Shown here piece after piece: positions 1-24,221 of a DNA stretch of 24,221 nt. Position 1 is the first letter of the stretch. Each line of letters begins with the position of its first letter. The DNA is taken from IMG/VR virus record IMGVR_UViG_3300030104_005905, positions 1 through 24,221 of that record; one strand, 5' to 3'. Source of the DNA: a virus. The translations under genes and the position numbers were made by a program. The notes under the pieces were generated by a model. The model was not told the origin of the DNA, ran no database searches, and worked only from the letters and a program-made list of their open reading frames with translations.

Positions 1-1749
1 CTGATAGGTGTTGATATCTGCGCCTGTGCTGTTATTGATTAATTTATATTCCAGCTTGATATGTGCGGTATCGCTCTCTTGAACGATGGTGAATGACACG
101 TTGCATGATGGCTTGTGTGAGATCCCGCTGGTGCTGTTGGGCAGCAGATCAACCGTAAATTGTTCGGTAAAGCCGTTGCCATTTGTAACCGATGTAAAGT
201 CATCCTCAACCAACGAAAACGTGTTTACATCACCGCTAATCTGCGCTGCGGTTAAGTTGTCTACAGTGATATTTGAGGCGTTAAGTGTGCCGCTATCGAT
301 CTTGTTTGCAGAGACGTTTCCCAGTTGCAATGTGGGAACACCGTTGACCACCACAGACTGGATTGAAGAACCATCGATGTTTAGCTTGCTGGCATCGATA
401 GAGCCGACACCAATTCGGGCAGAGTTAATTTCTCCGGCATTGATAACATCCGCACTGACACTGCCAATCTTCGCTGCCTCAATAGAGGCATCTTTAATGA
501 CAGCCGCTTTGATGTATGTTGTTCCGCTATCGATGAAAAATGGAATGATGCTGCTAGAGGGGGTGGTCGTTAGGTTGCCGTTGTAGGTTGCAGGATCGAC
601 TATCGCAAACTTGTCTGCGGCGATAATGAACGCGGATGAGTTGGTGCCGTCAACATTCTCACTGGCTAATCCAAAGCCAGACACATAGCGATTCGTTCCA
701 GTAGTTTGATTTATTTTGACCGTAAACTGACCGCTCAACGTGCCGTTGGTAGTAGCTTGAGCTGCCATTCTGGTTTCTAAAGAAACTCCAGAGGCAGGAC
801 CGTCAACATTGTCAATTCTTGCTGTCGCGTTCTTAATCGCCGTTGCGGCTGCGGAAGTGCTTGTGGTTGTGACGTTGTTTATTTCTGTGATAGATGCGGC
901 AGCGGCATTGGCAGTGTCTTTGACGCTTTTGAGCACCTTTCCGTCACCGATCAGATCCCAATAGGCATTAGTCGTATCCACAGTTGGCGGTGAGTCGTTA
1001 CCGTGTCCAGTTGCTGGCGGAGCAACCACCGCCTGTGTGCATGTATAAAAAAGATAGCGCTGTCCTAATCCATCGGTATTGTATAGGAGCTTAACCATGT
1101 CTCCGACATTGTAAGCGCCATTGCCATCCCAATCAGGGATGTTACCGATGTTGTTGCCGACAGGAGACGCTAAGAAGGTTGCCAGCTTTGACGATGTGAC
1201 AGATTGAGACAAGCTGGTAAGCAACGCATCAACGTCTTTTTCAGTTTCGCCTAAAGTGCCCGCCGAGCTGTTAAAGGCGCCTTTGTCGCCGTTTTTGTTA
1301 ACAGCGCGAATCCAGTAATAAAAGGTCGCATCGCTGCCTACGTTGTCTGCGTATACGCCAGCCTGTTGAGAAGTTACGGCAATAAGCTCGGCACTTGCAA
1401 TAGCGTCTGATGTGTGCCGCCAAATCTCAATATGATCGTGCGACGCATAGGAAAGCAAATCCCATCCAATTAAAATATTTTGGAATGCTCCGTTTGCCGT
1501 AAGATTAGTCGGGGTTGGGGGTATGGTCAGGTCCGGCAGAGTATCACTCGTGGGATACAGCCCATCTGATGCGCCGCTGTAGAAATTGGCGCCAGCAGGC
1601 AAGCGAGCTATACCTGAGTCAATCAGATCTCGTGCTGTGATCGCCCTATCCAAAGGGTCGCCGCGATTGCCGCAAAGGATATCTACGTTTTCCTTAACTG
1701 ACTCGGCATACTTTCGATCCTGCCCCGTCCACTTAGACGGAACGCTCAT
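1..1749 (-). CDS. Tail tip / host-specificity protein, lambda gpJ-like (partial, runs off left edge)
   Basis: The frame is open for 583 codons from ATG at 1749 to the first base of the window, so only the N-terminal part is present. Residues about 78-165 look like a fibronectin type III domain (PPTPTNLTANG, then IEIWRHT and YYWIRAVNKNG). About residues 340-430 match the DUF1983 region of lambda gpJ-type central fibres (YVSGFGL, FIIAADKFAIV, PFFIDSGTTYIKAAVIKDASI). A stretch rich in repeated SADVINAG / ANKIDSG / DASKLNIDG units follows, as in fibre shafts. In lambda, gpJ is at the tail tip and contacts the receptor; the same role is inferred here. It is the last visible gene of the leftward virion operon, 13 nt after the upstream tail gene. 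Shine-Dalgarno is weak. Confidence 0.85.
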   Translation of the reverse strand, partial: MSVPSKWTGQDRKYAESVKENVDILCGNRGDPLDRAITARDLIDSGIARLPAGANFYSGASDGLYPTSDTLPDLTIPPTPTNLTANGAFQNILIGWDLLSYASHDHIEIWRHTSDAIASAELIAVTSQQAGVYADNVGSDATFYYWIRAVNKNGDKGAFNSSAGTLGETEKDVDALLTSLSQSVTSSKLATFLASPVGNNIGNIPDWDGNGAYNVGDMVKLLYNTDGLGQRYLFYTCTQAVVAPPATGHGNDSPPTVDTTNAYWDLIGDGKVLKSVKDTANAAAASITEINNVTTTSTSAAATAIKNATARIDNVDGPASGVSLETRMAAQATTNGTLSGQFTVKINQTTGTNRYVSGFGLASENVDGTNSSAFIIAADKFAIVDPATYNGNLTTTPSSSIIPFFIDSGTTYIKAAVIKDASIEAAKIGSVSADVINAGEINSARIGVGSIDASKLNIDGSSIQSVVVNGVPTLQLGNVSANKIDSGTLNASNITVDNLTAAQISGDVNTFSLVEDDFTSVTNGNGFTEQFTVDLLPNSTSGISHKPSCNVSFTIVQESDTAHIKLEYKLINNSTGADINTYQ

Positions 1750-4411: not shown

Positions 4412-6207
4412 CAGTCAACCCTCGTATAGCTTGAAAATATTGCGCCAGATCCATCGGTTGGCGAACCTACTGCATCGTGAGTGCTAGTTTTAGTCGATGT
4501 CTGTGTAGTGTTGTTCATTGTCACGATATTTGAGTCGTGATAGTCAGCATCAACACTCGCATTGTTTGCCACGAATGCTTCCTTGTAAGTGCCATCAAAG
4601 CCGTACATTAGAATTTGATTGTTGGTATTTTCGGTGACAAAGAAAACGTCATTCGTTGTGTTGATTGCCAGAGCCGCAAGAGTTTTAGCTGAGTGAGGTG
4701 TGTCACTCAAAGTCACAAACGATTGATACACCAAACTAGAGTTATATTTATGAATTTTGCTATTAGACTTATCAAGCAGATAGAGGTCGCCATTTGCTGA
4801 GTCAATTGCGATCCCAGCGCCATTTCCAGCACTGATATAGCTTGTCGCATCAGTCACCCCAACATACGCATTATTCGTCGAGTTGTAACGATAGATTTTG
4901 CTATCTGCTGCAAAATTGAACACCAGATCGTTATACCAAGCGAGTTGTTTTGGTGCTTGTTGGCTAGACGTACTTATCGTCGTTTGTGAATCATAAGTGG
5001 TCGGATGGAGTCGAATGATCTTGTTTTCGCCACCTACACCTATCCAAATTTTGCTCGATGACTCTTGCGTATAGCCACTGTAGCCGGACGAACTATACGC
5101 GCTTGGCCAAGTGTACCCTGTCTGTAGATTTGAATTATAGACGCTGTACGGCGCGACTTGTGAGTTGCGATGATAAAACAGCGCACTACTTGAATCGCTG
5201 GCTTTTGCTGGCGAATTGTAAGTAGCAGCAACGCCGCCATCTAACGCAGAATGGTTAACCGAACTGTATACATAATTACCGCCTGAGGCGAGTGCGGCAG
5301 CAATACTGAAGTAATGAATTCTAGGGGTGCCGCTCACCGAGCATTTGATGCCAACATGATTTGTCGGGAAATTGCCTGTCGTGATCTGAGAATATGCGTA
5401 CCACGGAACCAATTCGGGTGCTTGCTGCCACCAAGAGTTGAAATTATTCGTGTAGTGAAGATATCCGTAATCAGATGAACTTAGTGTTCCGCTTGTGCCA
5501 GACGGATGCGCGTATTGCCAGAAATAAATGTTACTCGTATTCCCAGTTGCCACTAAAAAGTAGGTGTTGTTTTGAATCATGCAGCCAATGTACGCTCGGT
5601 TTTCGTTACCCGCATATGGACCATCGAATGAAATTGTAAACGTGCCGTAATGCGTGTCTAAGTCGGGAGAAAGATAAGCCACTTTTGTCTGATTACCGTC
5701 ATAACGACACATCACCATGATCATGTTTTGTTTGCTGTTTGCGGTATTTGCGTGGGTGAGATCGCTTTGCTGATCGTTGTTGAAAAAAACTTGCATGTAA
5801 GATGCATAAGCACTTGCCGAAAAAACAGTGCCGTCATTCAATTTTCTACGTTTGTTCCAAGTCTGTCCACGATTTGTCAAGCGGTGGATGTAGCCATCAG
5901 AGGTACATACCCATCGCCATAGATTTGTCGTGTCTGTGTCATTTACGATAACACCTTGCGTGTTTATATTGACTGGCGAGTAGCCGCCCCAAGGACTAAT
6001 AGCACCGCCATAAGTTTGCGTGGCGAGAGTACCATTGCCCATAAAATTACGAACAGGCGCATTTGGATAAGTAGATGAATTACTAAGCTGACCGCCTTTG
6101 AGAAATGTTTCGCCGCCCCTTGTCACTGTGTTCGCTGTGTCGAGAAGAGCGACGGTACTCCCGATAGGTACACTAACACCACCACCGCCACCTAATTTAA
6201 CTGCCAT
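4411..6207 (-). CDS. Tail fibre / receptor-binding candidate with NHL-like beta-propeller
   Basis: 598 residues behind a strong AGGAGG Shine-Dalgarno. The Gly-rich start (KLGGGGGVSVPIGS) is followed by a Tyr/Asn/Ser-rich beta body. The C-terminal part carries several NHL-like strands: LAWYNDLVFNFAADSKIYRY, GIAIDSANGDLYLLDKSNSK, AINTTNDVFFVTENTNNQI. Such propellers bind glycans or proteins. Located between a trimer-like fibre gene (6218-6790) and a small assembly-type protein, it is a good candidate for a distal fibre or adhesin. No catalytic motif was seen. Confidence 0.6.
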   Translation of the reverse strand: MAVKLGGGGGVSVPIGSTVALLDTANTVTRGGETFLKGGQLSNSSTYPNAPVRNFMGNGTLATQTYGGAISPWGGYSPVNINTQGVIVNDTDTTNLWRWVCTSDGYIHRLTNRGQTWNKRRKLNDGTVFSASAYASYMQVFFNNDQQSDLTHANTANSKQNMIMVMCRYDGNQTKVAYLSPDLDTHYGTFTISFDGPYAGNENRAYIGCMIQNNTYFLVATGNTSNIYFWQYAHPSGTSGTLSSSDYGYLHYTNNFNSWWQQAPELVPWYAYSQITTGNFPTNHVGIKCSVSGTPRIHYFSIAAALASGGNYVYSSVNHSALDGGVAATYNSPAKASDSSSALFYHRNSQVAPYSVYNSNLQTGYTWPSAYSSSGYSGYTQESSSKIWIGVGGENKIIRLHPTTYDSQTTISTSSQQAPKQLAWYNDLVFNFAADSKIYRYNSTNNAYVGVTDATSYISAGNGAGIAIDSANGDLYLLDKSNSKIHKYNSSLVYQSFVTLSDTPHSAKTLAALAINTTNDVFFVTENTNNQILMYGFDGTYKEAFVANNASVDADYHDSNIVTMNNTTQTSTKTSTHDAVGSPTDGSGAIFSSYTRVD

Positions 6208-18255: not shown

Positions 18256-18350
18256 TACATTGGTCTGCCTTTAGTTGTCTTTCTCTACATGAGAGACCGG
18301 CATTTAATGGGGTTGGTTTTTTATTCCCGCCCAAATTTTTTCACCCTCTA

Positions 18351-18377
18351 ATTCTACCACCCGAAGCCATTATTCAA
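18351..18377 (-). promoter_or_regulatory. Weak candidate promoter for the leftward late operon
   Basis: On the minus strand TTGAAT and TAGAAT are 15 nt apart, about 95 nt before terS. The spacer is short, so this is a poor sigma70 match; a phage-specific or activated late promoter may be used instead. Between here and terS lies an AT-rich stretch with a TGGG/CCCA hairpin and T-run (plus-strand 18308-18341) resembling the terminator at 21128. Confidence 0.2.
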
Positions 18378-18427
18378 AAGAATAGATGCGTTTTTATCCA
18401 TCTAGTATGTTTATTTGCATAAAATGG

Positions 18428-18455
18428 TTGACTTTCTCTGACGAGGCCCTATAGT
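18428..18455 (+). promoter_or_regulatory. Sigma70-type promoter for the rightward transcript
   Basis: TTGACT (5 of 6) and TATAGT (5 of 6) with 16 nt between them. Upstream is AT-rich. Expected start is near 18462, just before the first hairpin of the structured region. It would drive the ncRNA and then, by read-through, the small-gene operon. A GCCC/GGGC inverted repeat overlaps the -10 element and could be an operator. Confidence 0.65.
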
Positions 18456-18461
18456 GGGCAT

Positions 18462-18913
18462 AAGTCGCTGATACAGCGATGAGGCAGGAAGCCCGAACAC
18501 GCAGCCAGCATCGACCGCCAGCCACGAAGGCTCAATCAACAAAGCGGCACGAGAGAGGCAAACATCCAGACCAGCGGATGGCTTTCTCCCCAAGGGGGGA
18601 ATCAAAAGAACAGAAGGACGGCCAGACACCTTCTCAAAATAATAGCGGTCAGAGTGGACCTGATAGTCCGCAGCTAGCCAAGCCGGCTAACGCAGCTCCC
18701 TACTTTTGTATTAGTAAGCGTCCGGTCAAAGAGAAAGCAACCTACTTTCTACACGCTAGTTAAACCGTCGGCAAGCGCGAGACTCACCGCGAAGTGAGAG
18801 GTAGCGACCAGCGGGGAAAAAGACAGACAAGAGAGCGGAGGGCATTCCTTCCCAGTTACACCGCTCACTAGTTTGCCAAAGCGACTTCACTGAGGTGGCT
18901 TTGCCAAACTTTT
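18462..18913 (+). ncRNA. Candidate large structured non-coding RNA (about 450 nt)
   Basis: No convincing gene on either strand. Short hairpins follow one another on the plus strand: TCGCTG/CAGCGA (18465-18479), CATCC/GGATG (18563-18580), TCCCC/GGGGA (18587-18600), AGAAGG/CCTTCT (18612-18634), GGTC/GACC (18647-18660), TAGCC/GGCTA (18675-18689), AGAAAG/CTTTCT inside AGCGT/ACGCT (18717-18757), CTCAC/GTGAG (18783-18798), GGG/CCC inside GAGCGG/CCGCTC (18833-18866). Joining segments are A-rich. A promoter stands before it and a hairpin with T-run after it. Size and look recall large ornate phage RNAs such as GOLLD and ROOL, but I cannot assign it to a class. An alternative is a long structured leader of the operon. 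Confidence 0.55.
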
Positions 18914-18914
18914 A
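18871..18914 (+). terminator. Hairpin with T-run ending the structured RNA (leaky terminator or attenuator)
   Basis: GTTTGCCAAAGC pairs with GCTTTGCCAAAC (11 bp with one C-C mismatch), loop of 15 nt containing CAC-TGAG-GTG, followed by TTTT. It stands 22 nt before the first gene of the operon, so it may end the ncRNA, with read-through feeding the genes. Confidence 0.5.
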
Positions 18915-18918
18915 AATA

Positions 18919-18930
18919 GCCTGAGGAGGC
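18919..18930 (+). promoter_or_regulatory. Shine-Dalgarno stem-loop (GCCT-GAGG-AGGC)
   Basis: First of the repeated ribosome-site hairpins: a 4-bp stem with GAGG as the loop, so the Shine-Dalgarno GAGGAGG spans loop and 3' arm. It ends 5 nt before the ATG at 18936. Confidence 0.65.
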
Positions 18931-18935
18931 ACACC

Positions 18936-19310
18936 ATGGAAAAATCAATATCATCTAAAATCGCAAATTACGCAATTCACACCGACTGCGACGTCAGCTT
19001 GGGTTGGGCCGAAGATTCCAACCGGTACACCGATGCTTTGTACGTGATGATTGAGTTTAAAACGGGCGAACGATTCGCCTCTTGGAAACAAGAGAATCTA
19101 GGCGTTTTAGTGTCGGATGAAGACGGTTACTTTTACGTGCAAGATCGCGCAAGGGAAGCCCGACAGGCGATGGAAGCATATCTAGCGTCACTTGATCTGA
19201 GCGAAGAAGGTCTTGACGAGACGTTGTCTCACGGGGCATTCGCAAAATCCTTTCCAGTCTACGGCTCACCCGCTTACGAGGCGGAGGAGCGCATGGGACT
19301 CTATTGTTAA
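18936..19310 (+). CDS. First gene of rightward operon, unknown
   Basis: 124 residues, mixed, not recognised. Features: a beta-rich middle (ALYVMIEFKTGERFASWKQE, DEDGYFYVQDRA) and an acidic helical part (REARQAMEAYLASLDLSEEG), no membrane segment or Cys motif (one terminal Cys). As the first gene after the promoter region it has no hammerhead before it, only the Shine-Dalgarno stem-loop; one follows directly after its stop. Probably an early host-interaction or regulatory protein, but there is no evidence for a specific job. Confidence 0.75.
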   Translation: MEKSISSKIANYAIHTDCDVSLGWAEDSNRYTDALYVMIEFKTGERFASWKQENLGVLVSDEDGYFYVQDRAREARQAMEAYLASLDLSEEGLDETLSHGAFAKSFPVYGSPAYEAEERMGLYC

Positions 19311-19372
19311 ATCGATCTGAAGAGTAGCAGAGTGGTTCTCTGCCGAAACGCCTTGCAAGAGGCGTCATCGAT
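19311..19372 (+). ncRNA. Hammerhead ribozyme 1 (type I)
   Basis: Helix I ATCGAT (19311-19316) with ATCGAT (19367-19372); core CTGAAGA (19317-19323); helix II GCAGAG/CTCTGC with loop TGGTT (19333-19337) after a G-C pair and 2-nt bulge; GAAA (19345-19348); helix III CGCCTT/GAGGCG, loop GCAA; triplet GTC with cleavage expected after 19366. Loop II TGGTT is complementary to AACCA at 19373-19377. It starts right after the stop of the upstream gene. Predicted leader to the next ATG: 33 nt. Confidence 0.92.
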
Positions 19373-19380
19373 AACCAACA

Positions 19381-19392
19381 GCCTGAGGAGGC
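19381..19392 (+). promoter_or_regulatory. Shine-Dalgarno stem-loop
   Basis: GCCT-GAGG-AGGC, 7 nt before the ATG at 19400, directly after the ribozyme 1 linker. Confidence 0.65.
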
Positions 19393-19399
19393 GATGATT

Positions 19400-19555
19400 A
19401 TGAACACTCACATAGACAACCAAAACTTGATTCCAATCCTGCTTGAACTCGGCTGGATGGTGAAAAAAGAAACGTGGACTGACTGCCCAGCGGACATTTA
19501 TCAGAAGCTGGGGAATATGACAGAAGATGAGATTTTTGAAGTCCTTTCTCACTGA
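19400..19555 (+). CDS. 51-residue protein, unknown
   Basis: A short gene, MNTHIDNQNLIPILLELGWM, VKKETWTDCPADIYQKLGNM and a short acidic end EDEIFEVLSH. Not recognised. Evidence that it is real: it has the shared Shine-Dalgarno stem-loop at the right distance, hammerhead 1 before it and hammerhead 2 after it, and its TGA stop lies inside the catalytic core of hammerhead 2. On the upstream cleavage product the stop would remain intact. Confidence 0.75.
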   Translation: MNTHIDNQNLIPILLELGWMVKKETWTDCPADIYQKLGNMTEDEIFEVLSH

Positions 19556-19606
19556 TGAGCTGGGCGGGTAGTTCCCGCCCCGAAACAGCCTGCGGGCTGT
19601 CTGAGA
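19547..19606 (+). ncRNA. Hammerhead ribozyme 2 (type I)
   Basis: Helix I TCTCA/TGAGA (19547-19551 with 19602-19606); core CTGATGA, the exact consensus; helix II GGGCGGG/CCCGCCC with loop TAGTT (19569-19573); GAAA; helix III CAGCC/GGCTG, loop TGCG; triplet GTC, cleavage after 19601. Loop TAGTT matches linker AACTA (19608-19612): both sides differ from the TGGTT/AACCA of other copies, a compensatory change. It overlaps the last 9 nt of the upstream gene. Leader 30 nt. Confidence 0.95.
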
Positions 19607-19612
19607 TAACTA

Positions 19613-19626
19613 GACCTGAGGAGGTC
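19613..19626 (+). promoter_or_regulatory. Shine-Dalgarno stem-loop with covarying stem
   Basis: GACCT-GAGG-AGGTC: the pair next to CCT/AGG is A-T here in place of G-C, and a further G-C is added. Ends 5 nt before the ATG at 19632. Confidence 0.65.
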
Positions 19627-19631
19627 CAAAA

Positions 19632-19946
19632 ATGGATACACCAACTTTTGCAAGCATTAACTCTGAGTATGACCGGCAGATCGCAAAGATGTACAAGCTG
19701 GACCGGCGCTACTCAGACCTGCTCGCTAAGCATGAGCGAGTGTGGGATACGGAAGATGAGTACTCTGACAAGGGCGCTCGAATCAAAGAGCGGCAAGAGC
19801 TGAAAGAAGAAGCTCTGTATCAGCGGTTGCTTGAGATGGCTGAAGCGTTGCCGTCACGAGAGCTAAAGAACTTTGATGCTCAGTACAAAGCAATTCACGG
19901 GTACGAGTCTTACGCTATGCCCTATGCCTACTACGGCATTAATTAA
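19632..19946 (+). CDS. 104-residue helical protein, unknown
   Basis: Highly charged and helical (EYDRQIAKMYKLDRRYSDLL, then ERVWDTEDEYSDKGARIKER), ending in a Tyr-rich tail (YESYAMPYAYYGIN). Probably a coiled coil. Not recognised. Start fixed by the Shine-Dalgarno stem-loop. No ribozyme separates it from the next gene; only a degenerate GGTGGG/CCCGCT hairpin (19949-19972) lies between. Confidence 0.75.
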   Translation: MDTPTFASINSEYDRQIAKMYKLDRRYSDLLAKHERVWDTEDEYSDKGARIKERQELKEEALYQRLLEMAEALPSRELKNFDAQYKAIHGYESYAMPYAYYGIN

Positions 19947-19998
19947 TCGGTGGGTGTGATTTTTTTCCCGCTTAAATTCACTTTGAGGGAGGGCATTT

Positions 19999-20133
19999 AT
20001 GTCCGACATCGAAAAGGTACGAGAGGCCATCAAACTCTCCGGCGATGAACATCTCGCCAAACTCGCTGAGCTGGATAACAGCGAGCTGGAAGCGGTTATC
20101 AAAGCCGTTAAAAACTCATCTGAAGATGACTAG
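19999..20133 (+). CDS. 44-residue acidic protein, unknown
   Basis: MSDIEKVREAIKLSGDEHLA, then KLAELDNSELEAVIKAVKNS and SEDD. A short two-helix acidic protein, unrecognised. GAGGGAGGG serves as ribosome site, not in the shared stem-loop format. It shares no ribozyme boundary with the gene before, so the two would stay on one processed mRNA. Its last 19 nt are the 5' strand of helix I, the core and part of helix II of hammerhead 3, so this stretch is both coding and catalytic. Confidence 0.65.
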   Translation: MSDIEKVREAIKLSGDEHLAKLAELDNSELEAVIKAVKNSSEDD

Positions 20134-20174
20134 TGTGAGGGCTAGTCGAAACGCCTCTCAGGGGGCGTCATGAG
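20115..20174 (+). ncRNA. Hammerhead ribozyme 3 (type I), overlapping a gene end
   Basis: Helix I CTCAT/ATGAG (20115-20119 with 20170-20174); core CTGAAGA (20120-20126); one-base U bulge; helix II GACTAG/CTAGTC with 8-nt loop TGTGAGGG; GAAA; helix III CGCCTC/GGGGCG, loop TCAG; triplet GTC, cleavage after 20169. Loop bases TGAGG pair with linker CCTCA (20176-20180), a different sequence from other copies but again complementary. Leader 29 nt to ATG at 20199, here with an ordinary ACGGAGA site. Confidence 0.9.
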
Positions 20175-20198
20175 ACCTCAACTATACGGAGATTTACG

Positions 20199-20423
20199 AT
20201 GTATCTGACAGAGCATCAAATCGACCGCATGGCAGAGTGGGCTGCTCAAAACTATGAGATTTCGTGCTCATGGGACAGCGCAGCCGATGAAGCTAGGCAG
20301 TTCAGCATAGATGAGTGGGGCATCAAGCCCCGCAAATCTGCGGTTCTGCTTGCAGTAACCCGCGCCAAGGTGATTTGGATGGGCGCTGGTTTTGCTGCGC
20401 GGTTTGCAATTGGCAACGGCTAA
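20199..20423 (+). CDS. 74-residue protein, unknown
   Basis: MYLTEHQIDRMAEWAAQNYE, then CSWDSAADEARQFSIDEWG and a hydrophobic-leaning C-terminus (SAVLLAVTRAKVIWMGAGFA). Helical, not recognised. The last part is only weakly hydrophobic, with Arg and Lys within it, so a membrane span is doubtful. It follows hammerhead 3 and uses GGAGA as ribosome site. Confidence 0.7.
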   Translation: MYLTEHQIDRMAEWAAQNYEISCSWDSAADEARQFSIDEWGIKPRKSAVLLAVTRAKVIWMGAGFAARFAIGNG

Positions 20424-20430
20424 TAGCCCG

Positions 20431-20446
20431 AACCCCTGCGGAGGTT
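20431..20446 (+). promoter_or_regulatory. Decayed Shine-Dalgarno stem-loop without a gene
   Basis: CCT-GCGG-AGG flanked by AA and TT looks like the shared ribosome-site hairpin with a GCGG loop, but no start codon or ORF follows before hammerhead 4. Possibly the trace of a lost small gene. Confidence 0.3.
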
Positions 20447-20464
20447 TGTAACTCAATCCGCAAT

Positions 20465-20524
20465 TCTCACCGATGAGCTGCACGGGTGGTTCCCGCGCCG
20501 AAACGCCCTGCTGGGCGTCTGAGA
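20465..20524 (+). ncRNA. Hammerhead ribozyme 4 (type I, variant core)
   Basis: Helix I TCTCA/TGAGA (20465-20469 with 20520-20524); core CCGATGA, with C for the usual U at position 4; helix II GCACGGG/CCCGCGC with one A-C mismatch and loop TGGTT (20487-20491); GAAA; helix III CGCCC/GGGCG, loop TGCT; triplet GTC, cleavage after 20519. Linker AACCA (20526-20530) complements the loop. All helices are intact although the core base is unusual; activity may be reduced. Leader 30 nt. Confidence 0.82.
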
Positions 20525-20533
20525 TAACCAACC

Positions 20534-20545
20534 GCCTGAGGAGGC
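20534..20545 (+). promoter_or_regulatory. Shine-Dalgarno stem-loop
   Basis: GCCT-GAGG-AGGC ending 4 nt before the ATG at 20550. Confidence 0.65.
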
Positions 20546-20549
20546 ACTT

Positions 20550-21119
20550 ATGGAAATCAATTTGTACGAGGATGGCGAGCGCAGCTATGCGCTTGTCAGT
20601 TTAACTCAGATATACCAGTTGGGCATCGAGGCTTTTATTAGCAACGAAAGCCGACGGGATGGCGAAAAGGTTTACCTTCGCGCCGACAACCCATACGACA
20701 GAGACTTCTGTCTGTTCCGACATGCCATGGCTGAGCACGGCATCACGCTCGACATTCACGAGATGAGTCTGCCGACTCTGAATCTCTTTGGTAGGGTGGC
20801 TTCACTGTCACCTTTCCACCTTTACAAGGATGGGTGCCGGACTAGCCCTGCAGTGAGAACTGCGGAGATCTGGATCGGCGAGGAGGACGGCGATTGGCTT
20901 CAGGAAATCGAAGCCTATCTTCCTGCCAACTATTGGGTGGTGGGTCGGGTAACCGATACCGCTGGCGATAAAAGCCGCCATGGCACACCGACGCTCGAAG
21001 GGGCGAACGGTGACGATCGTCGATGCTTCATCGAGGGCATCGATCACGCGGGATGGAAGCTCGACAGCTACGTCATTCCGCGACTTGGTTCTGGTGGTAT
21101 TTACGCTACTGAGCTTTAG
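20550..21119 (+). CDS. 189-residue protein, unknown
   Basis: Mixed alpha/beta, no membrane segment. Visible blocks: EINLYEDGERSYALVSLTQI, YDRDFCLFRHAMAEHGITLD, a central EIWIGEEDGDWLQEIEAYLP and a C-terminal FIEGIDHAGWKLDSYVIPRL, GSGGIYATEL. The GxDHAGWxLDxYVIPRLxSG block looks conserved in phage proteins, as I recall, but without a known function. It is followed by a terminator (21128-21159), which divides the operon into two segments. Confidence 0.75.
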   Translation: MEINLYEDGERSYALVSLTQIYQLGIEAFISNESRRDGEKVYLRADNPYDRDFCLFRHAMAEHGITLDIHEMSLPTLNLFGRVASLSPFHLYKDGCRTSPAVRTAEIWIGEEDGDWLQEIEAYLPANYWVVGRVTDTAGDKSRHGTPTLEGANGDDRRCFIEGIDHAGWKLDSYVIPRLGSGGIYATEL

Positions 21120-21127
21120 GTAATTGC

Positions 21128-21159
21128 GTGGGGTTATTTATTTCCGCCCCACATTTTTT
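21128..21159 (+). terminator. Intrinsic terminator abutting hammerhead 5
   Basis: GTGGGG pairs perfectly with CCCCAC over a 13-nt loop, then A and six T. The last T is also the first base of helix I of hammerhead 5. So transcripts that end here lack the ribozyme, and those that read through make it. Confidence 0.8.
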
Positions 21160-21215
21160 CTCACTGACGATCGCCGGTGGTTCCGGCGTGAAAAGCCCTT
21201 CGCGGGCTTATGAGA
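21159..21215 (+). ncRNA. Hammerhead ribozyme 5 (type I, UUA triplet)
   Basis: Helix I TCTCA/TGAGA (21159-21163 with 21211-21215); core CTGACGA; helix II CGCCGG/CCGGCG with loop TGGTT (21178-21182), flanked by U and U in place of the usual G-C; GAAA; helix III AGCCC/GGGCT, loop TTCGC; cleavage triplet TTA, cut expected after 21210. Linker AACCA (21217-21221) complements the loop. UUA is an allowed NUH triplet, generally slower than GUC. Leader 30 nt. Confidence 0.88.
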
Positions 21216-21221
21216 TAACCA

Positions 21222-21233
21222 GCCTGAGGAGGC
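21222..21233 (+). promoter_or_regulatory. Shine-Dalgarno stem-loop
   Basis: GCCT-GAGG-AGGC ending 7 nt before the ATG at 21241. Confidence 0.65.
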
Positions 21234-21240
21234 ACTAATC

Positions 21241-21537
21241 ATGAACAAACAAAGACGAAAGGAACTGCAAGAGATTTATAACGATATGCTGGACTTGGAA
21301 CGTCTGGTGACCGCAGCCAATGACCTCGCGTGGGGAATGTACAAGAAACTCTCTTTGGTCATTGAAGCAGAAGAAACGTATGCGGACAACATGCCAGCCA
21401 ACATGCAATACAGTCAAAAGTACAAGCGAGCTATCGACGTTTGCTACCAGCTCGAAAGACTGCAAAGGGAGATTGCAGAGGTCGGGGACTACGACTCCAT
21501 TGAGCACGGCGTGTGCGTCATTAGTGACTGCATGTAA
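21241..21537 (+). CDS. 98-residue helical protein, unknown
   Basis: MNKQRRKELQEIYNDMLDLE, LVTAANDLAWGMYKKLSLVI, then KYKRAIDVCYQLERLQREIA and a Cys/acidic end. Mostly helical and probably coiled-coil, not recognised. It is the first gene after the terminator and hammerhead 5 and is followed by hammerhead 6, so it would be released as a monocistronic mRNA. Confidence 0.75.
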   Translation: MNKQRRKELQEIYNDMLDLERLVTAANDLAWGMYKKLSLVIEAEETYADNMPANMQYSQKYKRAIDVCYQLERLQREIAEVGDYDSIEHGVCVISDCM

Positions 21538-21544
21538 ACACGAT

Positions 21545-21602
21545 TCTAGCTGACGATCGAGGGTGGTGCCCTCGTGAAAAGCCCCTCGCGGGGCTTACTA
21601 GA
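21545..21602 (+). ncRNA. Hammerhead ribozyme 6 (type I, UUA triplet)
   Basis: Helix I TCTAG/CTAGA (21545-21549 with 21598-21602), a compensated change from copy 5; core CTGACGA; helix II CGAGGG/CCCTCG, loop TGGTG (21564-21568), flanked by U and U; GAAA; helix III AGCCCC/GGGGCT, loop TCGC; triplet TTA, cut after 21597. Loop TGGT pairs with linker ACCA (21605-21608). Copies 5 and 6 form one subfamily. Leader 31 nt. Confidence 0.9.
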
Positions 21603-21609
21603 TAACCAA

Positions 21610-21621
21610 GCCTGAGGAGGC
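21610..21621 (+). promoter_or_regulatory. Shine-Dalgarno stem-loop
   Basis: GCCT-GAGG-AGGC ending 7 nt before the ATG at 21629. Confidence 0.65.
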
Positions 21622-21628
21622 AAACATT

Positions 21629-22348
21629 ATGGAAAATCGAGACAAACTTTTGAGCAAGGTCAGCAAGCTGCTTGCACTGGCCAAAGACAAAGCTGCTAAT
21701 GAAAACGAGGCGGCCACGGCCCTGCGCCAAGCGGAGAGCATGATGAGAAAGCATGACATCGCATTTGCAGAGATCGAGGCCAAAACGATCGATGAGGGCA
21801 GCATGGTCCAATCCGAAACGGATGAAAAGCGCAACTCCAATTGGGTATGGCAGTTGGCTTGGTCGGCGTCAAATCTGAGCAGCACGATGCCTTACAAGAT
21901 TTTTTCGGGAATCGTCTTTTACGGCACCAAGCAGGACTGCGAAGTGGCCCAACTCTACTTCGACTATCTAGTAGCGGTTGTCGAGCGCATGGCCAAAGCC
22001 TATCAGGGTGATCAACTAGCCCGCGACATGTACGCCGAAACTTTGCGCTCACAGCGCAATGCGTTTAAGGGCGGCATGTCCATCAGGCTGTACCAGAGGA
22101 CGCTCGCCATCAAAGAAGAGCGTGAAGGCGAGGTCAGCAAGGCCAGCGGCACTGGCAAAGATCTGGTGGTGATGAAGCAAGACTTGATCAAAAAAGAGTT
22201 CGGCCTGACCTATCGATCAGCGCGACGGACGAGCTATGTGAGCGGCAACAGCTACCGCGACGGGCGAGAGGCAGCTAACGGCGTCTCTCTGAGTCAGCAA
22301 GTGACCGAGGGAAGCAGGCTTCGCCGGTTAGAGCGATACTTTGACTAA
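21629..22348 (+). CDS. DUF2786 domain protein
   Basis: 239 residues. The first 50 (LLSKVSKLLALAKDKAANEN, EAATALRQAESMMRKHDIAF) are a clear DUF2786 domain: K(V/I)xKLLALA, NExEAxxA, A(E)xMMxKH. The C-terminal part (WVWQLAWSASNLSSTMPYKI, FYGTKQDCEVAQLYFDYLVA) with the later KGGMSIRLYQRTL matches the region usually fused behind DUF2786 in phage proteins, a small metalloprotease-like fold in some predictions; no HExxH is seen here. Function unknown. It lies between hammerheads 6 and 7. Confidence 0.75.
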   Translation: MENRDKLLSKVSKLLALAKDKAANENEAATALRQAESMMRKHDIAFAEIEAKTIDEGSMVQSETDEKRNSNWVWQLAWSASNLSSTMPYKIFSGIVFYGTKQDCEVAQLYFDYLVAVVERMAKAYQGDQLARDMYAETLRSQRNAFKGGMSIRLYQRTLAIKEEREGEVSKASGTGKDLVVMKQDLIKKEFGLTYRSARRTSYVSGNSYRDGREAANGVSLSQQVTEGSRLRRLERYFD

Positions 22349-22408
22349 TTCGATCTGAATGAGAACCGGTTGGTGACCGGTCGAAACGCCCGCAAGGGCG
22401 TCATCGAA
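22349..22408 (+). ncRNA. Hammerhead ribozyme 7 (type I, core with one extra base)
   Basis: Helix I TTCGAT/ATCGAA (22349-22354 with 22403-22408); core CTGAATGA, eight bases in place of seven; helix II ACCGGT/ACCGGT with loop TGGTG (22371-22375); GAAA; helix III CGCCC/GGGCG with a GCAA tetraloop; triplet GTC, cut after 22402. Loop GGT pairs with linker ACC (22410-22412), only 3 bp, the weakest of the nine. Leader 52 nt, longer than the others, with a second ribosome site. Confidence 0.82.
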
Positions 22409-22415
22409 AACCTTT

Positions 22416-22427
22416 GCCTGAGGAGGC
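22416..22427 (+). promoter_or_regulatory. Shine-Dalgarno stem-loop, distant from the start
   Basis: GCCT-GAGG-AGGC, but 27 nt before the ATG at 22455. A second site AAGGAGA (22440-22446) at normal spacing probably starts translation, making this copy a leftover or standby site. Confidence 0.6.
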
Positions 22428-22454
22428 ATTAACTAAATTAAAGGAGACCTAAAT

Positions 22455-23345
22455 ATGGGAGATCTAATTTACTCTCGAAAAGCGAACAACTCATTCCTGA
22501 CGAATGAGGAAATTCAGCAGCGGGCGCCTGCGGTATTCGCCCACGGCGCGGCCAATGACTTGTCGGCAAAATACGGCAACTTTGACTCCACCACGGCGAT
22601 TGCTGTCATGGCGGAAAATAACTACTTTCCGGTTCAGGCTGCCCAGATAAAGTCGCGTAACGTCAAGTCGCTCAAGTATGGTCAGCACCTTTTAGCGTTT
22701 GCAAAAAATGACCCTGTGTCGCTGGCTGAGCAGCCCGAAATCGTGTTTTACAATTCGCACGATGGCGGTAGCAGCATGCGGCTCTTCGCAGGCATGTACC
22801 GCTTCATCTGCAGCAACGGCATCGTGGCTGGTGACGGCTTTGATCAGCGGCTGGTCCACTATCAATCCAACGTGTCATCTTTTGAAAAAATGGTGGCAAG
22901 CACGGCTGATAGCTTGGAGGGCTTGTCAGAGATCACGGCTGAAATGAAGTCGAAGACGCTGTCCGGCGCGGCACAAGCTGAGTTTGCGGAAGCAGCTCTT
23001 GCTACTCGCTTCGACAGCTTCCGAGACTTTGGCGCTGTGTATAGCATGGAAGATGGCAAGCGCGAGCGCTCAGTGTTCACTGCCGCAACCGTGCAGCAAG
23101 CACTGCGTCCGCGTAGGGACGGTGATCTGGGCGCTGACGCATGGACGGTCTTTAACCGCGTTCAGGAAGCTGTACTGCGCGGCGGAGATCACTTCAATCC
23201 GCTGCGGGTCATTGGCGATTCTACGCGCCGAAGTCGCAAAATCCGCACGACCAAAAACGTGCGGCCGCTCAAGTCTATCCGCAGCCATGTGGAGACCAAT
23301 CGAGCGCTATGGGACATCGGCCAAAACATGCTGATGGCCGCCTAA
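22455..23345 (+). CDS. DUF932 domain protein
   Basis: 296 residues. Opening FLTNEEIQQRAPAVFAHGAA, then the Asn/Tyr region YGNFDSTTAIAVMAENNYFP, the pair EIVFYNSHDGGSSMRLFAGM and YRFICSNGIVAGDGF, is the signature of DUF932, a family of phage and plasmid proteins (about 260-350 residues) of unknown biochemical role, often near recombination or early genes. The C-terminal 60 residues (RRSRKIRTTKNVRPLKSIRS) are basic. Starts behind AAGGAGA; flanked by hammerheads 7 and 8. Confidence 0.85.
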   Translation: MGDLIYSRKANNSFLTNEEIQQRAPAVFAHGAANDLSAKYGNFDSTTAIAVMAENNYFPVQAAQIKSRNVKSLKYGQHLLAFAKNDPVSLAEQPEIVFYNSHDGGSSMRLFAGMYRFICSNGIVAGDGFDQRLVHYQSNVSSFEKMVASTADSLEGLSEITAEMKSKTLSGAAQAEFAEAALATRFDSFRDFGAVYSMEDGKRERSVFTAATVQQALRPRRDGDLGADAWTVFNRVQEAVLRGGDHFNPLRVIGDSTRRSRKIRTTKNVRPLKSIRSHVETNRALWDIGQNMLMAA

Positions 23346-23403
23346 TCCATCTGAATGAGAACCGGCTGGGAACCGGTCGAAACGCCCTCACGGGCGTCAT
23401 GGA
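23346..23403 (+). ncRNA. Hammerhead ribozyme 8 (type I, core with one extra base)
   Basis: Helix I TCCAT/ATGGA (23346-23350 with 23399-23403), covarying with the other copies; core CTGAATGA (eight bases, as in copy 7); helix II ACCGG/CCGGT with 7-nt loop CTGGGAA; GAAA; helix III CGCCC/GGGCG, loop TCAC; triplet GTC, cut after 23398. Loop TGGG pairs with linker CCCA (23406-23409), again a joint change. It begins at the base after the upstream stop. Leader 31 nt to ATG at 23430. Confidence 0.85.
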
Positions 23404-23410
23404 AACCCAT

Positions 23411-23424
23411 TGTCTGAGGAGGCA
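23411..23424 (+). promoter_or_regulatory. Shine-Dalgarno stem-loop that decides the start
   Basis: TGTCT-GAGG-AGGCA with one U-G pair. The ATG at 23424 is too close to it, so the ATG at 23430 (7 nt after GAGGAGG) is the likely start. Confidence 0.55.
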
Positions 23425-23429
23425 TGCCT

Positions 23430-23681
23430 ATGAAAAAACCCCTGTCATTTCGACAGATTAGCAATCGCGGCCATGTGCCCGTCATGCATTACGACGGCGG
23501 CTGGCGCACTGGATATGTGAGCAAGGTGGGCAGAACGCTCGTTCACCTTGTGAACAGTTACCCCAAACACACCAAGCGACTAAAGTTCGCGGAGGTCAAA
23601 GGTAAGGTCAGGGTCATGCTCGACAAATCCGGCAAGTCCAGAGACACCGACACCGCTGAGCTGAAGAGACTTTTAGCTTAA
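23430..23681 (+). CDS. 83-residue basic protein, unknown
   Basis: MKKPLSFRQISNRGHVPVMH, then YDGGWRTGYVSKVGRTLVHL, VNSYPKHTKRLKFAEVKGKV and a charged end. Beta-rich and basic, with an SH3-like or KOW-like look (GWRTGYVSKVGRTLVHL), so nucleic-acid binding is possible. No family is claimed. ATG at 23430 preferred over 23424 on spacing. Followed by a complex RNA structure, not by a simple ribozyme. Confidence 0.7.
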   Translation: MKKPLSFRQISNRGHVPVMHYDGGWRTGYVSKVGRTLVHLVNSYPKHTKRLKFAEVKGKVRVMLDKSGKSRDTDTAELKRLLA

Positions 23682-23771
23682 GTGGTGACCCCAACGTAGC
23701 CTTCGTCTGAGGAGGACTTTTAGGTGTGGAAACCTAAACAACTACGCTGGGGCCGGTCGCGATTGTACCAC
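23682..23771 (+). promoter_or_regulatory. Nested RNA structure around a GTG start
   Basis: GTGGT (23682-23686) pairs with ACCAC (23767-23771); inside, CCCCA-a-CGTAG (23689-23699) pairs with CTACG-c-TGGGG (23742-23752), one mismatch. Enclosed are a Shine-Dalgarno hairpin GTCT-GAGG-AGGAC (23705-23717) and TTTAGGT/ACCTAAA (23719-23738), which holds the GTG at 23724. It could control that start. Only sequence complementarity supports it. Confidence 0.5.
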
Positions 23772-23772
23772 A

Positions 23773-23833
23773 TTCCAACCGATGAGAACCGGCTGATGAC
23801 CGGTCGAAACGCCTCTCCTGAGGCGTCTTGGAA
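23773..23833 (+). ncRNA. Hammerhead ribozyme 9 (type I, variant core), inside an open frame
   Basis: Helix I TTCCAA/TTGGAA (23773-23778 with 23828-23833); core CCGATGA (C at position 4, as in copy 4); helix II ACCGG/CCGGT, loop CTGATGA; GAAA; helix III CGCCTC/GAGGCG, loop TCCT; triplet GTC, cut after 23827. Loop TGAT pairs with linker ATCA (23835-23838). A GTG-started frame runs in phase through the whole ribozyme into the next gene. Leader to ATG at 23859: 31 nt. Confidence 0.83.
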
Positions 23834-23841
23834 AATCAAAC

Positions 23842-23855
23842 ATCCTGAGGAGGAT
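23842..23855 (+). promoter_or_regulatory. Shine-Dalgarno stem-loop with covarying stem
   Basis: ATCCT-GAGG-AGGAT: both outer pairs differ from the GCCT/AGGC form yet remain paired. Ends 3 nt before the ATG at 23859. Confidence 0.65.
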
Positions 23856-23858
23856 ATT

Positions 23859-24062
23859 ATGAGTACTTTAAATTCTGAGTATTTTGAACTGGAGGCGGAA
23901 ATTGCTACACTTGCTGAATCAGCGATTGAGCTGCGCTTAATCAACGTCTCAAACCACTTGGCCAATGCGCTCGCAGCAATCGCCAAAGTGACGTTTACAG
24001 AGCCGTCAGATCTGCCGCGCATCGCTTGCATGCATCAGCTAAAATTGGAGGGCATCGTATGA
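23859..24062 (+). CDS. 67-residue helical protein, unknown (possible 112-residue form from GTG 23724)
   Basis: MSTLNSEYFELEAEIATLAE, SAIELRLINVSNHLANALAA and a short tail. Helical, unrecognised. ATG 23859 is preferred because it follows hammerhead 9 and the shared stem-loop. A frame from GTG 23724 (GAGGAGG 8 nt upstream) is continuous with it and would add 45 residues, including WGRSRLYHIPTDENRLMTGR, encoded by the ribozyme. Cleavage would remove that extension. Its stop overlaps the next start (ATGA). Confidence 0.65.
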   Translation: MSTLNSEYFELEAEIATLAESAIELRLINVSNHLANALAAIAKVTFTEPSDLPRIACMHQLKLEGIV

Positions 24063-24221
24063 AGCATTTAACGCCCGAAATGGCCAGCAAGGCCATACGC
24101 AGCATCGGCGGCGAGCCGGTGATTATTGATGTGAACGCCGGCGTGGTGATGTACATGCTGCATGCCCCCACGTTCACTGAGCGGCCATACGTCACGCACC
24201 TCGTGTCCATGCATGAAGACG
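24059..24221 (+). CDS. Partial gene at the right edge, unknown
   Basis: At least 54 codons, MKHLTPEMASKAIRSIGGEP, VIIDVNAGVVMYMLHAPTF, running off the window. GGAGGG precedes the ATG, which overlaps the stop of the gene before, so these two form a coupled pair with no ribozyme between. Not recognised. Confidence 0.65.
   Translation, partial: MKHLTPEMASKAIRSIGGEPVIIDVNAGVVMYMLHAPTFTERPYVTHLVSMHED

Follow-up and report, generated by a model that had tools for sequence, protein, structure and literature searches.

Nine predicted type I hammerhead ribozymes at the gene junctions of a phage operon, each linked to a short leader and most to a Shine-Dalgarno hairpin

The virus record IMGVR_UViG_3300030104_005905, analysed here over its whole length of 24,221 bases (the window), derives from a virus of bacteria and contains exactly nine type I hammerhead ribozymes, located on the plus strand between positions 19311 and 23833. 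They occupy nine of the approximately 11 junctions of an operon of small genes, nine units within 4.5 kb, and each of them lies between genes or overlaps a stop codon. An earlier reading of the sequence (the original prediction) had proposed nine such units at this place and on this strand, and both a covariance-model search with nine matches and descriptor scans confirmed it. The polycistronic transcript of this operon is probably self-processed into short mRNAs with standardised 5'-OH leaders.

The nine units were recovered with R1, a covariance model of 13 rows (12 from other contigs and one corresponding to copy 9 of the window), with E-values from 2e-18 to 4.4e-8, the next match having E=3. 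With a strict type I descriptor, the window gave six units and 200 shuffles gave none, a slightly wider descriptor identified eight, and copy 4 was recovered once one mismatch in helix II was tolerated. No descriptor match was obtained in 2.5 Mb of shuffled sequence, and of 1000 shuffled versions of the operon only 2 held any match. The covariance-model check suggested in the original prediction had a divided outcome, as R1 retrieves all nine units, whereas the Rfam hammerhead models yield sub-threshold matches only, neither the window nor nine array loci having a match at the gathering score. The best Rfam score for any window copy is 25.4 bits (RF03152) compared to the 56.3 needed, a threshold that represents an annotation cut-off and not a defining chemical or structural feature. 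Rfam-based annotation misses this group.

All nine units follow the type I order, consisting of an open helix I of 5–6 base pairs (bp), the core, helix II, GAAA, helix III, and the cleavage triplet. The three helices surround the core in every copy, with II and III closed and I open, and with one helix II mismatch in copy 4. GAAA and A15.1-U16.1 are present in all of them, the triplet is always of the NUH type (GUC in seven copies and UUA in two), and the predicted minimum free energy (MFE) structure has the expected three-way shape in eight copies. Sequence comparison establishes this predicted fold: in an alignment of 36 distinct sequences, drawn from the window as well as from related phages, 94.6% of the cells are paired. 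Changes on both sides are found in 21 of 23 pairs, and the concerted change that the original prediction had noticed in helix I extends to all three helices. Double-change cells amount to 183, where shuffles give 44.5 and slid controls no more than 19, the shuffle tests being inflated by related sequences.

A further contact, missed in the original prediction, is a pseudoknot in which loop II pairs with the bases just 3' of helix I (3–5 bp in the eight copies scored). Here, 94.9% of the cells are paired, and 13 double-change cells are observed against 2.4 expected (0/500 shuffles); for the window copies alone, re-dealt partners reach the observed value with p=0.001. A loop-to-3'-tail pseudoknot was described by Perreault et al., with an estimated 40% or so of hammerheads using such a contact, and it is required for fast cutting in one type II example (PMC3088659).

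The catalytic cores are less uniform than the fold. Copies 1, 2, 3, 5, and 6 had been considered canonical, and CUGANGA is indeed exact in all five, but a fully canonical core is found only in copies 1 and 2, with deviations in the other seven. Copies 7 and 8 hold an A inserted after A6 (A6a; CUGAAUGA) and are expected to be slow cutters. The same insertion recurs in the locus L007 within an otherwise perfect structure, and it may therefore be tolerated in this context. In another locus, the unit L031:4658-4724 has the core UUGAUAA, a compensated C3U/G8A change of the type described in Perreault et al. 2011 (PMC3088659).

Downstream of eight ribozymes (all but copy 3) there is a small hairpin that holds the Shine-Dalgarno (SD) sequence in its loop, also missed in the original prediction. 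Hairpins of this type are found in relatives as AAUC-UGAGGA-GAUU, UACC-GCAGGA-GGUA, and UGCC-GGAGGA-GGCA. Their arms covary, with 2.92 of four pairs formed at 24 distinct ribozyme-linked SD sites, compared to a null of 1.90 on average and 2.46 at most (2000 permutations). For other genes, the SD sites stay at the null (1.55 vs 1.48 pairs). There are ten exact occurrences of the motif CTGAGGAGG in the window, on the plus strand only and always from 18921 on. No prior description of this hairpin was found in the papers searched, which may simply not include one. Eight of the leaders between the predicted cut and the start codon measure 29–33 nucleotides (nt) and the ninth 52, as had been predicted. 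Among 285 strict ribozymes (all loci fetched, some of which, from the window and relatives, overlap), 67% have an SD and a start 20–45 nt past the cut, compared to 10% at random positions. Gene I, with the sole long leader of the nine, has a second SD (AAAGGAG) in addition to the hairpin, in the region 22418-22455. A reading of the SD CTGAGGA as a type II hammerhead core with the same cut site was rejected, given that a helix I hairpin of at least 4 bp is formed in copy 8 only; the type I units of the terminase-related loci described below all lack the required hairpin I.

The upstream stop codon abuts the ribozyme or falls inside it in six of the nine copies (gaps of 0, -9, -19, 7, 0, and 0 nt), and its distance to helix I is larger for copies 4 (41 nt), 5 (39 nt), and 9 (91 nt). 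One promoter-like site was found upstream of the operon, at 18428-18455, and none inside it, in a scan to which phage-specific promoters are invisible. The arrangement of all units on one strand between genes, together with the lack of an internal promoter-like site in that scan, lends support to the role put forward in the original prediction, the cutting of a polycistronic transcript.

Conservation in other phages was examined through a terminase search, which returned 72 loci. Terminase relatives hold from one to nine type I units, on the strand divergent from the terminase; searches with the operon proteins H and I confirmed no relatives in viral contigs. One of the relatives, L030, holds nine ribozymes in 4.2 kb, and RF00163 gives sub-threshold matches there (28.6 bits, E 7e-4) at the same positions. 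In four phages, L030 among them, ArdC-like antirestriction genes (related down to ~32–36% protein identity) have a ribozyme 29–38 nt upstream, the sequence of which has been turned over. Moreover, three sister loci without type I units have, at the corresponding place upstream, a type II hammerhead (RF02276; Table 1), and this type I/type II exchange among sister phages represents, as far as the predicted folds tell, a natural swap of circular permutation.

According to the proposed mechanism, the operon would be transcribed as one or few long RNAs, and each junction, on emerging, would fold into a type I hammerhead clamped by the pseudoknot between loop II and the 3' flank. The cut is predicted to fall co-transcriptionally just 5' of the 3' strand of helix I; cutting and end chemistry are features that we infer from the hammerhead class. 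The upstream product would be an mRNA closed off by the stable helices II and III and bearing a 2',3'-cyclic phosphate at its end. The downstream mRNA would begin with a 5'-OH and have a short leader, of 29–33 nt in eight of the nine cases, with the SD usually in a hairpin loop. Each gene or small gene group would thereby be expressed from a separate mRNA, the 5' and 3' ends being nearly the same in all of them, and its translation and decay would be uncoupled from those of its neighbours, as in the engineered element RiboJ. Insulation and decay control are the likely benefits, and the overlap between stop codon and ribozyme may additionally allow upstream translation to time the cutting. It is also conceivable, with a likelihood that we place somewhat under one half, that hammerhead, clamp pseudoknot, SD-in-loop hairpin, and start codon form a standard cassette used at nearly every accessory-operon junction in this lineage and in others, a natural counterpart of RiboJ by which unrelated genes could be exchanged without disturbing their neighbours.

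Several points weigh against self-processing into separate mRNAs. The predicted energy for opening the SD and start is equal before and after cutting (mean of approximately 7.5 kcal/mol); since cutting leaves the predicted accessibility of the SD as it was, initiation is not expected to be affected directly, and cleavage as an on/off switch of the ribosome-binding site (RBS) is unsupported and not proposed here. The benefit of separate mRNAs, be it insulation or stability, is one that we only infer. The predicted MFE structure of copy 4 differs from the hammerhead fold, copies 5 and 6 carry a U.U at 10.1/11.1, and an A6a insertion, as in copies 7 and 8, goes with low activity in another natural hammerhead (PMC3088659). 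Finally, the three-helix alignment was fitted to the model, so that the covariation figures for the helices lean towards structure; the pseudoknot lies outside the model.

Among the other explanations, the one with the greatest weight, which we hold to be a serious option at rather less than even chances, is that the ribozymes are active but serve mainly to control RNA decay, the 5'-OH and the 3' ribozyme body protecting individual messages or exposing them, with the separation of translation being incidental. Most upstream stops abut or lie within the ribozyme, so that the upstream message would end in ribozyme hairpins, and predicted SD accessibility is unaffected by cleavage; in addition, RiboJ increases transcript abundance approximately twofold (PMC6206723). 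Decay control, however, does not account for the presence of a separate SD hairpin, with covarying arms, in the leader, and it overlaps with self-processing into separate mRNAs to such an extent that sequence alone does not separate the two.

A spreading cassette of ribozyme, SD, and gene, moved by repeat recombination under little selection on cleavage, seems unlikely. The near-identical units at several junctions of L030 do point to local duplication or conversion, and the operon genes of the window have no matches among the genes of other arrays, though the cassette is common to both. Nevertheless, the window units are only 55–85% identical and yet keep the fold in all copies, with helices and pseudoknot changing in step, and both the retention of a ribozyme before ArdC orthologs despite sequence turnover and the replacement of type I by type II in sister phages argue against such spreading. 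Even more improbable, to the point of being scarcely credible, is that the structures are inactive hairpins serving as terminators, antiterminators, or protein-binding sites. The core deviations in seven of the nine copies and the terminator-like hairpin immediately before copy 5 would fit this idea. By contrast, the invariant GAAA and cleavage triplet, the CUGANGA or near-variant core, and the compensated C3U/G8A core of L031:4658-4724 are expected only under selection for catalysis, and no T-run follows the ribozyme units. For this latter reason, and with terminator-scan counts of the window at background, the units were rejected as intrinsic terminators.

The coordinates of the units and of the related features are collected in Table 1. 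Structural genes, including those for the large terminase, a portal-like head-tail adaptor, and the major head protein, run leftward in the window, while the small-gene operon runs rightward from ~18.9 kb. The junctions without a hammerhead are those from gene C to gene D (19947-19998) and from gene J to the reading frame at 23724. One of these junctions holds, at 23685-23760, an inverted repeat, ACCCCAACGTAG/CTACGCTGGGG, around GTC-TGAGGAG-GAC and TTTAGGT/ACCTAAA hairpins, possibly a three-way-junction RNA.

Table 1. Predicted features of the operon and type II hammerheads of sister loci (window coordinates unless a locus is named; leaders run from the predicted cut to the start codon)
Feature	Coordinates	Strand	Description	Predicted cut after	R1 E-value	Leader (nt)	Next gene start
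Rightward operon	18936..24221	+	~12 small genes (A-M), mostly without known function
Hammerhead 1	19311..19372	+	Core CTGAAGA, GAAA, GTC, canonical; begins immediately 3' of gene A stop	19366	1.2e-15	33
SD hairpin 1	19381..19392	+	GCC-TGAGGA-GGC				B, 19400
Hammerhead 2	19547..19606	+	Canonical core CTGATGA; gene B TGA stop inside core; pseudoknot UAGUU/AACUA	19601	1.2e-12	30
SD hairpin 2	19613..19626	+	GACC-TGAGGA-GGTC				C, 19632
Hammerhead 3	20115..20174	+	Extra U after core; overlaps final codons and stop of gene D; pseudoknot UGAGG/CCUCA; no SD hairpin behind	20169	4.4e-8	29
Hammerhead 4	20465..20524	+	Core CCGATGA (U4C); single A.C mismatch in helix II; pseudoknot UGGUU/AACCA; weakest fold of the nine	20519	2.6e-13	30
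SD hairpin 4	20534..20545	+	GCC-TGAGGA-GGC				F, 20550
Terminator-like hairpin	21130-21158		Directly before copy 5
Hammerhead 5	21159..21215	+	U.U at 10.1/11.1; UUA triplet	21210	4.2e-14	30
SD hairpin 5	21222..21233	+	GCC-TGAGGA-GGC				G, 21241
Hammerhead 6	21545..21602	+	U.U at 10.1/11.1; UUA triplet	21597	4e-16	31
SD hairpin 6	21610..21621	+	GCC-TGAGGA-GGC				H (DUF2786/DUF7168), 21629
Hammerhead 7	22349..22408	+	Core CTGAATGA, A6a insertion; begins immediately 3' of gene H stop	22402	3.5e-15	52
SD hairpin 7	22415..22428	+	TGCC-TGAGGA-GGCA				I (DUF932), 22455
Hammerhead 8	23346..23403	+	A6a insertion; begins immediately 3' of gene I stop; pseudoknot UGGG/CCCA	23398	2.3e-13	31
SD hairpin 8	23411..23424	+	TGTC-TGAGGA-GGCA				J, 23430
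Hammerhead 9	23773..23833	+	U4C core CCGATGA; pseudoknot UGAU/AUCA	23827	2e-18	31
SD hairpin 9	23842..23855	+	ATCC-TGAGGA-GGAT				L, 23859
Type II hammerhead, L035	4590-4659	-	44.7 bits (gathering score 37)
Type II hammerhead, L055	4707-4772	-	39.6 bits (gathering score 37)
Type II hammerhead, L061	5667-5730	-	35.8 bits (gathering score 37)

In L030, the two wide junctions without a ribozyme hold a terminator-like hairpin followed by an SD hairpin; neither is present where genes overlap. Ribozyme-free junctions of this locus (20-44, 868-910, and 1388-1430, minus strand) share a repeated element, AAAAAGTAACTACCACAAAGC(C/T)C..., which comprises a terminator-like hairpin and then, where the contig continues, an SD hairpin. 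The first operon gene of L030 is preceded by a non-coding, structured-looking leader of ~450 nt (4790-5260, minus strand), blocks of which occur at 71–82% identity in L007, L015, L026, L198, and L438. This leader has no Rfam match at the gathering score and is a candidate new structured RNA; the window leader (18256-18935) has only a 70-nt patch in common with L007. Hammerheads of ~103 nt with an unusually long insertion are kept at the same junction in several relatives (L198 7364-7466, L202 6601-6703, and L438 7289-7391).

Similar same-strand arrays are present in environmental phages, both related and unrelated. Other records hold arrays of three to seven units, on the same strand each time, and nine is the largest number among the matches listed. 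Long lists of pattern matches from viral as well as bacterial contigs indicate that such hammerheads are common. The arrays of three to five same-strand hammerheads in bacterial assemblies (L209, a Clostridiales metagenome-assembled genome, as well as L228, L239, L245, L311, and L318) probably belong to prophages. R1 found no hammerhead in the cultured or complete phages CRP-7, CRP-235, P26059A, MW202701, and MW202692, in which the terminase or gene I has distant relatives, and a BLAST search of one cassette against annotated phages gave short, non-significant matches only.

The closest precedent is the work of Perreault et al. 2011, in which multiple hammerheads were found to flank single phage genes, and long phage transcripts were proposed to be cut into single-gene mRNAs (PMC3088659). 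Three tandem arrangements, from C. scindens, A. caulinodans, and A. tumefaciens, cleaved in vitro, and the A. tumefaciens triple also does so in E. coli (PMC3088659). Like those clusters, the units described here share one strand, flank single phage genes or short blocks, and are stabilised by a pseudoknot; an antirestriction gene is also a neighbour in both cases, ardA in that study (PMC3088659) and the ArdC-like gene in the relatives. The novelty put forward in the original prediction, for hammerheads at nearly every junction of an operon, is too strong, since phage hammerhead clusters, the pseudoknot, the processing idea, and tandem activity are already published (PMC3088659). The largest arrangement named there is a triple (PMC3088659), compared to nine units in 4.5 kb here, and the near-uniform leader length and the covarying SD hairpin also set the present array apart. 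Novel aspects are therefore the density, the near-uniform cassette of ribozyme, pseudoknot, and SD hairpin, the conservation at orthologous junctions, and the type I/type II replacement in sister loci. A search of the literature for arrays beyond those of 2011 found none, with few subscription papers and preprints covered.

With the Rfam families Hammerhead_1 (RF00163), Hammerhead_II (RF02276), and RAGATH-1-hammerhead (RF03152), the units have in common the core, the three helices, and the NUH triplet. In phage T7, the polycistronic early mRNA is cut at gene junctions by RNase III, a host protein. Cuts at junctions would likewise yield separate mRNAs here, although in this case the RNA is predicted to cut itself. 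A 2017 review (PMC6155905) counted the role of bacterial and phage hammerheads among the field's open questions, and nine ribozymes with near-uniform leaders, together with many related arrays, provide repeated, internally controlled units for testing this debated role.

The other comparison, an analogy and not a homology, is with RiboJ, which also combines a hammerhead, a small hairpin, and an RBS, and defines the 5' end of the message (PMC6206723). RiboJ was engineered from the satellite tobacco ringspot virus ribozyme and sits after promoters, with its hairpin before the RBS; this hairpin may help to expose the RBS, and transcript and protein levels are both raised (PMC6206723). Unlike RiboJ, the units described here are natural, lie between genes, and hold the SD inside the hairpin loop. 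Judging by this likeness, phages may have arrived through evolution at the solution that RiboJ embodies in synthetic biology, and their operons would be a source of natural insulator parts.

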